DNA of 64,000 nucleotides, taken from NCBI GenBank assembly GCA_013334565.1, contig JAAXXI010000002.1, positions 1 to 64,000 of the forward strand. Reading direction: 5' to 3'. Every line of letters begins with the position of its first letter. The first letter of the stretch is position 1. The notes under the pieces are model-generated. The model made no database searches, was not told the DNA's origin, and saw nothing but the letters and a program-made list of their open reading frames with translations. The DNA is from Chlorobiaceae bacterium (lineage in GTDB: Bacteria > Bacteroidota > Chlorobiia > Chlorobiales > Chlorobiaceae). The position numbers were made by a program, and so were the translations under genes. Of the stretch, positions 55,415-59,896 are shown one piece after another.

Positions 55415-55579
55415 GCAATGCAATAATTGATGGGTTGATAAAAAAATGCGAGTCAGGAGCCCCGGAAATCCGGCTGACGGCGATGATAAAAGTGCAAAGA
55501 TACTCTTTTTCAGGCTTATAAAAAATTTGCCTGAAAATCACGTTATCAAAGCTTATTTGCAGTGCGGGTCGGGCTTCTT

Positions 55580-56431
55580 TCAGGTGACGATGTGCCGTTT
55601 GATGCCGAGCTGCTTCGCCGTATAGCCCAGCGCGAGGCCCACCATCTCGGAGAGGTGGAAAACAGGAATGGAGTTTTTCTCGTCACCGGCCTGTTTGAGC
55701 GCCTTGGCCTGGTAACCGTCAAGCACCGTATGGCAGAGGGGACAGGGGGTCACGATGAAATCGGCCTTTTCCCGGATCGCCTCTTCGAGGGCTTCCGCGG
55801 CAACATTGAGGGACTCCTCCTCCGCAACAAGCAGGGTGTGGAAGCCGCAGCAGCGGTTCTTGTGTTCGTAGGGGATCGTTTTGCCTCCGAGCGCTTCGAT
55901 GAGCTGGTCGAGTGAACTTGGCTCGACCGGGTTGTCGTGGCCGAGCACCTTGGAAGGCCTGAGGATGTGGCATCCGTAGAAAGGCGCTATCCTGTAGTTC
56001 GTCAGCGGCACTTTCACTTTCTCTTTTATGGCATCGATCCCGACATCGTCGATAAGCACCCATAGCAGATGGCGGACATCGGAAGTACCGCGGTATTCAA
56101 GCCCTTCTTTTTTCAGGATGTCGTTGACCTCCTGTTTCAGTTCCGGGGTTTCGTCGAGCTTTTTCTTTGCCGAACGGATGGTCATGAGGCAGGTATTGCA
56201 GGATACGACAAGGTCCAGTCCCATTTTTTCGGCAATGGCGATATTACGTGCGTTGACCAGCGCAAAATGCTTGGGGCTGACGTAGTCGAGGTTGCTCCCG
56301 CCGCAGCAGGTGCTTTCATGCATTTTAACCAGCTCGATGCCAAGGTCCTTCTGCCAGAGATCGATCGATCGGTCAACTTCTTTGGTCATCGACTCGTTGA
56401 TACAGCTCAGATAATATGCGTAACGCTTCAT
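55580..56431 (-). CDS. CCG-domain subunit of succinate dehydrogenase/fumarate reductase (SdhE/HdrB-like)
   Basis: 283 residues with two cysteine-rich CCG domains: C10, C42-C43-G, C78, C81 and C154, C194-C195-G, C230, C233. The pattern is that of heterodisulfide reductase HdrB and of the SdhE subunit in archaeal-type (class E) succinate dehydrogenases. It takes the place of the haem-bearing anchors SdhC/SdhD. It has no transmembrane helix, so association with the membrane would be peripheral. Last gene of the sdhA-sdhB-sdhE operon, 17 bases after sdhB. Confidence 0.92.
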   Translation of the reverse strand: MKRYAYYLSCINESMTKEVDRSIDLWQKDLGIELVKMHESTCCGGSNLDYVSPKHFALVNARNIAIAEKMGLDLVVSCNTCLMTIRSAKKKLDETPELKQEVNDILKKEGLEYRGTSDVRHLLWVLIDDVGIDAIKEKVKVPLTNYRIAPFYGCHILRPSKVLGHDNPVEPSSLDQLIEALGGKTIPYEHKNRCCGFHTLLVAEEESLNVAAEALEEAIREKADFIVTPCPLCHTVLDGYQAKALKQAGDEKNSIPVFHLSEMVGLALGYTAKQLGIKRHIVT

Positions 56432-56448
56432 CCTGCGGTTCTCCCCGG

Positions 56449-57489
56449 TTATTTATTATGTGATTTATGATCTTCCCTGACATGTTCGGACATCTCCCTG
56501 AACATCGACCGGAACACCCTGATGCCCTTGGTCGGCTTCACCAGAGGGGGCGGCGGCGGAGTGCGCCGTTTGACGATCATTTTCATGGCCATTGGAAGAA
56601 GGTTCTTCAGGGTCCAGGCCATACCGTTGGTACGGATGGGCAGGGTCGCCTCGACCAGCTTGCCTTTCTTTTCGATATCGGACATGAATGCTTCAGCATG
56701 TTTTGACCCGCTGGTATCCTTCATGCCCCTGCGCTCGATGGCATCTTCACGGATACCATGGATTGCGTCCATGATGGGAATGCTTTTCACGCAGGTCTCC
56801 TGGCAGCGGTAGCAGTGCGTGCAGTCCCATACGCCGTGGTCCTTCACCAGTTCGGCAAGCCGGACGTCATGGATGGCGTCGCGGCTGTCGGAGTTCATCC
56901 GGTAGGATTTCAGGAGCACCGCAGGAGAGACATACTCGCTGTTCGCCCGCAGAATGCTGCACTCTGAAACGCAGGACGCGCAGAGGATGCAGTCCGTCGC
57001 CTTGTCGTATTTCAGGAACTCCTCTTCGGAAATCAGGAACTCTTTCTTACCCATTTTCTCTTCGGGCATCGTCGACTCGACCCAGTTCGAGTAGTGCTTC
57101 ATCTTGTCGACAAGCGGGTCCATATCGACGATAAGGTCCTTGACGAGTGGAAGGTTTCGCAGCGGTTCGACCTTGATGACGTTCGGCTCCCTGCACTTTT
57201 CGAGCACCTCCCATACCTGGGTGGTGCAGGCGAGCTTGGAAAGCCCGTTCACCCGCATGGCACACGAGCCGCAGATGCCGGCCTGGCAGAAAGCCCTGAA
57301 GCTCACGGTCGCATCGAGGTGTTCCTTGATGTAGTTCAGGGACCTGAGCACCGTGATACCGCGTTCCACCTGAATGGTATAATCGTCGTAGTAGGGCTTG
57401 CTGTCGATCTGGGGATTGAAGCGGAATACCCTGAAGGTGATATCTTTTTTCGCCTCTTCTATATGCGGTTCTGTTACCGTCATGAGCAA
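56449..57489 (-). CDS. sdhB: Succinate dehydrogenase/fumarate reductase iron-sulfur subunit
   Basis: 346 residues, about 100 longer than usual. The N-terminal [2Fe-2S] domain has C68, C73, C76, C88. The second domain has two full CX2CX2CX3C sets: C167, C170, C173, C177 and C223, C226, C229, C233. Canonical SdhB lacks the cysteine equivalent to C226 and so holds a [3Fe-4S] cluster; here a [4Fe-4S] is predicted. An extra C-terminal region (about 255-346, with RRTPPPPPLVKP) follows. In green sulfur bacteria the complex is expected to run as fumarate reductase in the reductive TCA cycle. Confidence 0.94.
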   Translation of the reverse strand: MLMTVTEPHIEEAKKDITFRVFRFNPQIDSKPYYDDYTIQVERGITVLRSLNYIKEHLDATVSFRAFCQAGICGSCAMRVNGLSKLACTTQVWEVLEKCREPNVIKVEPLRNLPLVKDLIVDMDPLVDKMKHYSNWVESTMPEEKMGKKEFLISEEEFLKYDKATDCILCASCVSECSILRANSEYVSPAVLLKSYRMNSDSRDAIHDVRLAELVKDHGVWDCTHCYRCQETCVKSIPIMDAIHGIREDAIERRGMKDTSGSKHAEAFMSDIEKKGKLVEATLPIRTNGMAWTLKNLLPMAMKMIVKRRTPPPPPLVKPTKGIRVFRSMFREMSEHVREDHKSHNK

Positions 57490-57494
57490 TAAGG

Positions 57495-59198
57495 TTAATA
57501 AGTTCTTTCCTGAAGTTCGTAACGGCCCATGGTAACCGGTTTTTCACCAAGGGCGACTTTGCCGTTTTCCAGGGTGGCCACGGTATGCCTGTGCCATTTT
57601 TCGTCATCCCTTACCGGAAAATCAACACGGGTATGGGAACCGCGGCTTTCCTCGCGGGCATAGGCCCCAGCGGCGACGGTTTCGGCAAGGTCGAGCATGT
57701 TTTTCAGTTCGAGGACCTGAATGAGATTGGTGTTGTACACGTCGCTGGTATCGAAGACACGCACATGCTGGTAACGCTCCCTGAGCGCGGCGATATCGTC
57801 GATGCCTTTGCGGAGCAGGGGGGCTTCACGGAAAATACCGACGTTCATGGCGAGGGTCTGCCCGAGCTCCTCGCGCAGCGCACCGTAGCGCTCATAGTGG
57901 CCGGATGGCTTCATGAAGCTTCTCAGCTCCTCGGCCTTCTCGGCGATTTCCGATTCCGGTATGATGCCCGGGGCAAATTTTCCCACTTCTTCAGCGGCGG
58001 TACGGCCGGCAATGCGCCCGAAAACGAGGATGTCGAGCAGGGAATTGCCTCCGAGCCGGTTCGCGCCGTGCACGGACACGCAGCCGCATTCACCTGCGGC
58101 ATAGACGCCGCCCATGACGGTACGTCCGAAATTGTCGGTATCGATGCCTCCCATGGAATAGTGGGCGGTCGGCCTGACCGGTATCGGTTCTTCGATGGGA
58201 TCGACGCCTTCGAACTGCATCGACATTTCACGGATCTGCGGCAAACGCGATTTGATGAGGTCGGCTCCGAGGTGGGTGAGGTCCAGGTGGATGTATTTTC
58301 CTGCCGGACTGTCGAACCCTCTCCCCTCCAGGATTTCCGTTTCTAACGATCGGGCGACAAGGTCCCTCGGGCCGAGTTCCATTTTTTCTTTCGCATACCT
58401 TGCCATGAACCGTTCGCCGTCCCGGTTGACAAGGTAGCCGCCTTCGCCCCTCGCCCCTTCGGTTACGAGCAGGCCGCTCTTGCGCAGGCCGGTCGGATGG
58501 AACTGGACAAACTCCATATCCTTGAGCGGGATGCCCGCACGGTACGCGATCGCCTGGCCGTCACCGGTATTGCCTGCGGCGTTGCTCGACCGGTTCCAGT
58601 ACATCTTGGCATAGCCGCCTGTCGCGAAAATCACGGTCTTCGACGCAAAGGCTTCGACCTTGCCGGTCTTGATGTTCAATGCGAGCAAACCCCTCATGCG
58701 GCTGCCGTTGACCGAAAGGCTGAGCGCGAAATATTCGTTGAAAAACTGGACCCCTTTCTTGAGGCACTGTTCATAAAGCGTCTGCAGGATGGTATGCCCG
58801 GTCTTGTCGGCACAGTAGCAGCATCGGGGGCGTCCGGCACCGCCGAACGGGCGCTGGGCGATGGTGTTGTCGTCCATGCGCGACCACGGGGTACCCATGT
58901 TGTCAAGTTCGCGGATGATTTTCGGGGCTTCCGAACAGAGCACTTCGACGGCATCCTGGTCGGCAAGGTAATCGCTGCCCTTGATGGTATCGAAAATATG
59001 CAGTTCAACCGTATCGTCCTTGGCCTTGTTGGCAAGCGCGGCATTCGCGCCGCCCTGGGCTGCCGACGTGTGCGAACGGTTCGGGTAAACCTTTGAAAGC
59101 ACGGCGATATTCAGGGACGGGTTTGTTTTCATCGCCTCCATCGCCGCGTACAACCCGGCACCGCCTCCGCCGACAATGACAATATCGAATGGTTTCAT
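57495..59198 (-). CDS. sdhA: Succinate dehydrogenase/fumarate reductase flavoprotein subunit
   Basis: Catalytic flavoprotein interconverting succinate and fumarate; 567 residues. The FAD-binding GGGGAGLYAA starts at residue 10, and the histidine for covalent FAD is H43 in NRSHTSAAQGG. Active-site blocks include FVQFHPTGL, TEGARGEGG and RPTAHYSMGGI. First gene of the operon, 5 bases upstream of sdhB. The symbol frdA would be equally apt given the expected direction in the cell. Confidence 0.96.
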   Translation of the reverse strand: MKPFDIVIVGGGGAGLYAAMEAMKTNPSLNIAVLSKVYPNRSHTSAAQGGANAALANKAKDDTVELHIFDTIKGSDYLADQDAVEVLCSEAPKIIRELDNMGTPWSRMDDNTIAQRPFGGAGRPRCCYCADKTGHTILQTLYEQCLKKGVQFFNEYFALSLSVNGSRMRGLLALNIKTGKVEAFASKTVIFATGGYAKMYWNRSSNAAGNTGDGQAIAYRAGIPLKDMEFVQFHPTGLRKSGLLVTEGARGEGGYLVNRDGERFMARYAKEKMELGPRDLVARSLETEILEGRGFDSPAGKYIHLDLTHLGADLIKSRLPQIREMSMQFEGVDPIEEPIPVRPTAHYSMGGIDTDNFGRTVMGGVYAAGECGCVSVHGANRLGGNSLLDILVFGRIAGRTAAEEVGKFAPGIIPESEIAEKAEELRSFMKPSGHYERYGALREELGQTLAMNVGIFREAPLLRKGIDDIAALRERYQHVRVFDTSDVYNTNLIQVLELKNMLDLAETVAAGAYAREESRGSHTRVDFPVRDDEKWHRHTVATLENGKVALGEKPVTMGRYELQERTY

Positions 59199-59417: not shown

Positions 59418-59445
59418 AAAAAAAGGGACTGTTGCCGAAGCCCTG
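59418..59445 (-). terminator. Likely terminator after the CBS-domain gene
   Basis: A short imperfect stem (AGGGCT/AGTCCCT around TCGGCAAC) is followed on the minus strand by seven T residues. It lies just past the stop at 59450; the stem is weak but the T run is good. Confidence 0.5.
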
Positions 59446-59449
59446 ACGT

Positions 59450-59896
59450 TTACAAGGCTACATTGTTGTCATGCACCGGAAGCTCCTCGACGGCACGGAG
59501 AACATCGCTCATGTTGAGTACGCCGATAACCTTGTTACCCTCCATGACGGTAAGGCGCCTCACATTGGTGCGCTTCATCAGGCGAAGGGCGTACTTTACC
59601 CTGAGGCCCGGATTGACGCTGATGATCGGCTTGCTCATGATCTGGAAAACAGGGGTGTTCCATGGATCGCGATGGATGTCTTCTCCCGGATCGATAACCT
59701 TCTCGAGGATGTCCTTTTCCGTTACGATGCCATAACAGTCATCCTCGTTTCTTGGCTCGATGATCAGGCCGCTTTCGTTGCTCTTTTTCATGATCTGCAA
59801 CGCTTCCGCAACCGTGCAGCTGCCTTTGATGACCTGAAAATCCTTCTGCATGAGGGCAGAGACCGGGAGGGTACGCAATGTTATAAGCTGATCCAT
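59450..59896 (-). CDS. Two-CBS-domain protein
   Basis: 148 residues forming one Bateman module: first CBS about 10-75 ([32 protein letters not shown]), second about 82-140 ([35 protein letters not shown]). Such stand-alone modules bind adenine nucleotides or SAM and regulate partners, none of which is adjacent here. The gene is monocistronic. Confidence 0.85.

Follow-up and report, generated by a model that had tools for sequence, protein, structure and literature searches.

The haem-free complex II SdhABE of a Chlorobium genome and the CBS-domain gene that precedes it

The sdhABE genes of Wolinella succinogenes encode a menaquinol-type fumarate reductase that has no detectable succinate dehydrogenase activity and no SdhF (Juhnke et al., 2009; PMC2680327). 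Its SdhE has no predicted transmembrane segments and is probably attached to the membrane via amphipathic helices, the SdhABE of Campylobacter jejuni likewise lacks SdhF, and green sulfur bacteria were listed among the SdhE relatives in 2009 (PMC2680327). A published tree treats the corresponding flavoprotein as the fumarate reductase of the reductive tricarboxylic acid (rTCA) cycle in Chlorobiales, absent in photoheterotrophs and with a history of transfer that relates it to Lambdaproteobacteria (PMC9560492). The direction of the rTCA cycle is set partly by fumarate reduction, and the donor for this step in green sulfur bacteria is unsettled. Here we analyse an sdhA-sdhB-sdhE locus in a 64-kb stretch of DNA (the window; positions 1 to 64,000 of contig JAAXXI010000002.1) from a metagenome-assembled genome (MAG) of the genus Chlorobium (2.35 Mb, 86.8% complete). 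It encodes a cytoplasmic, haem-free, type-E succinate:quinone oxidoreductase, which we consider rather probably to be a menaquinol:fumarate reductase lying peripherally on the membrane. The enzyme is of a known kind, already recognised in green sulfur bacteria; what is added here is a second complex II, a cassette in which a CBS gene precedes sdhABE, and a doubled SdhB in the Chloroherpetonaceae.

Subunits and cofactor motifs of the sdhABE locus

The locus consists of three neighbouring open reading frames (ORFs; 55580-59198, minus strand) with the following features:

57495..59198, minus strand: sdhA/frdA, flavoprotein subunit, 567 aa, cytoplasmic, predicted covalent flavin adenine dinucleotide (FAD)
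56449..57483, minus strand: sdhB/frdB, iron-sulfur subunit, ATG start, 344 aa; [2Fe-2S] and two four-cysteine motifs
56959..56991, minus strand: SdhB cluster-2 motif CxxCxxCxxxC
56791..56823, minus strand: SdhB cluster-3 motif CxxCxxCxxxC, four cysteines; [4Fe-4S] expected instead of [3Fe-4S]
56458..56535, minus strand: SdhB C-terminal tail, cationic amphipathic helix after a proline linker; weak candidate for a membrane tether
55580..56431, minus strand: sdhE, CCG subunit with HdrB fold, 283 aa
56189..56404, minus strand: first CCG motif, C-x31-CCG-x33-CxxC
55733..55972, minus strand: second CCG motif, C-x39-CCG-x33-CxxC

Pfam domains identified SdhA (FAD_binding_2 and Succ_DH_flav_C), SdhB (Fer2_3 and Fer4) and a third subunit that carries the CCG domain twice (E 1.2e-27), and NCBIfam agreed on all three; a 99% identical protein is encoded by a lake MAG. 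The A-B-E order recurs in those related loci whose length is sufficient to cover it, so that the arrangement is not due to chance; the exception is the Hydrogenothermaceae (L114-L116, L228, L229), where sdhB and sdhE are linked, sdhA is at another site and a CBS gene is lacking in the vicinity. The original prediction had placed this operon correctly and its reading was mostly right: the genes lie where it put them and have the identities it gave, and our reading of the locus likewise found no anchor gene and no sdhF gene within or after the operon. With SdhF missing, it had called the membrane link unexplained; since three-subunit SdhABE enzymes without SdhF are known and are normal in bacteria (PMC2680327), the absence is confirmed but needs no special explanation.

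The two complete CCG domains predicted for the third subunit are present, and all ten of their cysteines are invariant among 36 relatives, down to 47% identity. An AlphaFold2 model of SdhE (pLDDT 86.6, pTM 0.87) had methanogen HdrB as its top Foldseek match (TM 0.90). On profile scores the SdhE model of 8-methylmenaquinol:fumarate reductase (MFR) stood 39 bits higher than that of HdrB (263 vs 224 bits), and among three HdrBs taken from HdrBC clusters, two scored higher on the HdrB model than on the MFR-SdhE one. The tree placed the protein in an SdhE clade (97/93) of Chlorobiota, Spirochaetia, Lambdaproteobacteria and Hydrogenothermaceae, apart from HdrB, with some long branches; Campylobacterota and archaeal SdhE were not returned by our searches and are not part of this tree. 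Both profile and phylogeny therefore uphold the prediction of an SdhE/HdrB-like protein. Matches at 28-38% identity elsewhere in the phylum were rejected as SdhE, the five loci read being HdrB beside HdrC. The genome also has a cluster of an HdrC-HdrB fusion, an HdrA-like flavoprotein and FlpD/MvhD (contig C13; L158 5366-9567), and the HdrCB-like match was found throughout the Chlorobiaceae.

In SdhB the four cysteines of the third motif (C223, C226, C229, C233) are invariant across 23 aligned rows and imply a second [4Fe-4S] cluster, which is a mark of type-E enzymes (PMC2680327). A three-cysteine third motif (CxxxxxCxxxC) is found in the SdhBs of haem-type sdhCAB operons of the same order, and the classical three-cysteine form also in the SdhBs that stand alone in genomes with sdhCDA. 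This motif, the CCG subunit and the clades of the proteins bear out the assignment to class E. The Chloroherpetonaceae operon contains two SdhB genes in the order A-B'-B-E (L106 2914-5004; L159 5498-7622), of which B' lacks the C-terminal extension and keeps the four-cysteine third motif. We rejected B' as a partner of the sdhCDA operon of this family because a separate, stand-alone SdhB is encoded elsewhere in both genomes; the one of these that was read has a three-cysteine third motif.

The SdhA protein belongs to the SdhA/FrdA family (TIGR01812, 840 bits; cut-off 567) and falls in an ABE clade (98/96) apart from the sdhCDA, sdhCAB and NadB proteins. Its N-terminus, MKPFDIVIVGGGGAG, starts at the Rossmann motif without an N-terminal extension and shows no twin-arginine translocation (Tat) signal, and the histidine to which the flavin is attached is retained (RSHTSAAQGG).

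Electron donor, direction and the second complex II

We propose that menaquinol electrons would enter SdhABE at the HdrB-like subunit E, would then cross SdhB through the two [4Fe-4S] clusters and the [2Fe-2S] cluster, and would reach the FAD in SdhA, where fumarate would be reduced. All three subunits lack a transmembrane segment (the mean hydropathy over 19 residues peaks at 1.2), and the complex would attach peripherally to the membrane through SdhE, possibly also through the amphipathic tail of SdhB. This C-terminal extension is conserved as far as the Hydrogenothermaceae; in the Chlorobiaceae its end is formed by a proline linker followed by a cationic amphipathic helix, which has the highest moment of all 11-residue segments in A, B and E. 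Because the structure model of SdhB is weak (pTM 0.46), we take the helix as a hint, and the tail as a weak candidate for an interfacial tether.

We infer the donor, the direction and the mode of attachment. Menaquinol (-74 mV) is able to reduce fumarate (+30 mV) (PMC3578206). The eight genomes from outside the Chlorobiaceae that were retrieved through E all matched the citrate-binding model of ATP-citrate lyase (ACL), seven of them above the cut-off, four of these only moderately (59-63 bits). In Chlorobaculum tepidum, according to a review, the rTCA enzyme activities are found and succinate dehydrogenase expression is reduced (PMC11269200). Together these points favour a menaquinol:fumarate reductase, and our trees agree with the published one (PMC9560492). 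Of menaquinol and a soluble carrier, the two donors between which the original prediction had left the choice open, menaquinol is the more probable.

Several observations weigh against this reading. A, B and E all score below the cut-offs of the NCBIfam MFR equivalogs, and the amphipathic tail ranks first among the SdhB segments of most, but not all, relatives. Some relatives have ACL and no ABE (G079, G137, G288), so the link between ABE and autotrophy is not strict; a search of the MAG that contains the window (86.8% complete) gave no match to the ACL marker, which a close relative does have. In addition, a second, haem-type sdhCAB in the same genome could perform the same job.

This second complex II, which like the CBS gene was not mentioned in the original prediction, is an sdhC-sdhA-sdhB operon on contig C66 (92211-95650; L157 3212-6651). 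Its SdhC belongs to the cytochrome b558 family (TIGR02046, 215 bits; cut-off 96), and such a type-B SdhC is present in 69 of 71 Chlorobiaceae. A Pfam Sdh_cyt search of the genome gave no match, whereas the more specific TIGR02046 found the protein, so the Pfam search alone would have misled. An anchor encoded elsewhere, which would count against the original prediction if it purified together with SdhAB, does exist, but it adjoins an SdhA and SdhB of its own, and that SdhA is in a different clade from the window SdhA. Across the order, ABE-type E occurs in 63/65 Chlorobiaceae, in both Chloroherpetonaceae and in none of eight genomes from the other two families. The Chloroherpetonaceae combine ABE with a CDA operon and have no type-B SdhC; in the other two families ABE is absent and CDA is present, in some cases together with CAB. 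Of these forms of complex II, ABE is the one that the two families described as autotrophic share. Two Spirochaetia MAGs (L107, L108; G297, G298) carry ABE together with a type-B SdhA that groups with the Chlorobiaceae one, which suggests that both complexes were exchanged.

With two complexes in one genome, SdhABE may instead be a soluble fumarate reductase, its subunit E being fed by thiols, or by NADH or ferredoxin via an HdrA-type flavoprotein, and sdhCAB would then serve the quinone pool. We hold this to be possible though unlikely. The HdrB fold and full CCG cysteine set of SdhE, the lack of a transmembrane segment in any subunit and the quinone-type sdhCAB also carried by Chlorobiaceae are all compatible with it, and the HdrCB-HdrA-FlpD cluster of the genome could supply electrons; yet the loci read show ABE without linkage to any gene for HdrA, an NADH-binding protein or ferredoxin, the Chloroherpetonaceae have ABE although no full-length HdrCB-like match was found there, and a menaquinol is the donor of the bacterial SdhABE that has been characterised (PMC2680327).

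An exchange of roles, with SdhABE as succinate dehydrogenase and the haem-type sdhCAB as rTCA fumarate reductase, seems improbable to us. Succinate oxidation is described as the preferred direction of type-E enzymes in most of their hosts (PMC3578206), and type-B sdhC is found not only in 69/71 Chlorobiaceae but also in two ACL-bearing relatives without ABE. The Chloroherpetonaceae, on the other hand, have ATP-citrate lyase and ABE and no type-B sdhC, and ABE is missing from the photoheterotrophic relatives (also PMC9560492). Lastly, that the window SdhA and SdhB borrow the SdhC that the genome encodes, the CCG protein having some other role, is hardly credible, since this SdhC adjoins its own SdhA (of a different clade) and SdhB, the CCG gene follows A-B in the spanning loci and B and E stay together even where the Hydrogenothermaceae A is unlinked, and the Chloroherpetonaceae have ABE without type-B SdhC. 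A menaquinol:fumarate reductase thus remains our preferred reading of SdhABE, and the presence of two structurally different complex II enzymes in the Chlorobiaceae makes the question of the donor testable by deleting either of them.

The CBS gene upstream of sdhA and the boundary with hemE

Three further features flank the operon:

59450..59896, minus strand: CBS-pair protein, 148 aa, immediately upstream of sdhA; candidate adenylate-sensing regulator
59426..59443, minus strand: terminator-like hairpin after the CBS gene, a pattern match only
55495..55502, minus strand: TATCTTTG (TAnnTTTG) box, probable hemE promoter, which sets hemE apart from the sdhABE operon

The upstream protein consists of two CBS domains (Pfam, 7e-25), and its gene lies ahead of sdhA, at a distance of 105-260 bp, in every one of the 66 Chlorobiaceae loci in which positions could be assigned to both genes. 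It also precedes sdhA in the Chloroherpetonaceae, two Spirochaetia MAGs, a Lambdaproteobacterium and one genome (L112; G300) counted in the phylum of the latter, the gap being at most about 50 bp outside the Chlorobiota. An independent search of that phylum with the CBS protein alone gave one further genome with CBS followed by A, B and E, so that the CBS-A-B-E cassette is known from Chlorobiota, the two Spirochaetia MAGs and three genomes of the Lambdaproteobacteria phylum. Orthologues scoring at least 150 bits were found in 13/13 CBS-ABE genomes tested, the scores in eight members of the order without ABE were at most 33 bits, and the gene stood beside none of about 55 other SdhA-family loci, many of which are overlapping views of the same genes. 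The hairpin after the CBS gene makes its co-transcription with sdhABE uncertain in the window.

We infer that the CBS protein is probably a regulator. Thr59 and Asp62 are invariant and Asp131 is nearly so, and the first two fit the adenosyl-binding motif that is usual in CBS domains. The closest solved structure is CBS-CP12 (5nmu; E 3.1e-27), a cyanobacterial regulator that binds AMP (PMC9406205) and acts on the Calvin cycle; the window protein differs in having no CP12 domain and in lying beside fumarate reductase genes. By analogy with CBS-CP12 control of the Calvin cycle, we tentatively suggest that it might sense the adenylate energy charge and switch or tune SdhABE, gating electron entry into the rTCA cycle, although we consider this doubtful. 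A literature search found no paper on a CBS protein with fumarate reductase, and none for six locus tags of C. tepidum. The retention of the gene directly before sdhABE in three phyla looks new. A putative energy-sensing protein that accompanies the haem-free complex II across phyla is a candidate regulator of rTCA carbon fixation.

On the other side of the operon, the gene after sdhE is hemE and not SdhF. The TAnnTTTG motif occurs in 64/70 Chlorobiaceae intergenic regions before hemE (6.6 expected by shuffle), mostly 81-99 bp ahead of the hemE ATG, and this conserved box supports the proposal that hemE belongs to a separate transcript. No such boxes above chance level were found upstream of sdhA or of the CBS gene. 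The box upstream of hemE resembles the Bacteroidota promoter box.

Comparison with known systems

Judged by the taxa and by its neighbours in the tree (Chlorobiales and Lambdaproteobacteria, with absence in Thermochlorobacter), the window enzyme is the same as the Chlorobiales rTCA fumarate reductase of PMC9560492, a paper in which a term search found neither heterodisulfide-like subunits nor CBS genes mentioned. It resembles the MFR of Wolinella and Campylobacter in its A-B-E composition, the lack of SdhF, the CCG subunit, for which MFR is the best NCBIfam model, and the two [4Fe-4S] motifs of SdhB. The Wolinella MFR SdhA, however, has a Tat signal, is periplasmic and has the flavin histidine replaced (Ala86), none of which holds for the window SdhA, and the MFR equivalog scores reach about a third to half of the cut-offs (A 613/1100, B 193/600, E 263/500 bits). 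On these sequence characters the enzyme is not of the Wolinella MFR subtype. The archaeal SdhABEF of Acidianus and Sulfolobus shares the second [4Fe-4S] cluster in SdhB, an SdhE with two CCG domains and the lack of haem, but it has SdhF and its physiological direction is probably opposite. HdrB of the CoB-CoM heterodisulfide reductase (PDB 5odc, 8rvy) has the same fold as SdhE (TM 0.89-0.90, 36% identity) and the CCG motifs; it pairs with HdrA and HdrC, whereas the window SdhE is in another clade and goes with SdhA and SdhB. The methanogen thiol:fumarate reductase TfrAB also combines SdhA, SdhB and two CCG domains, but its TfrB is a fusion of the iron-sulfur subunit with the CCG domains, whereas the window encodes these in separate ORFs.

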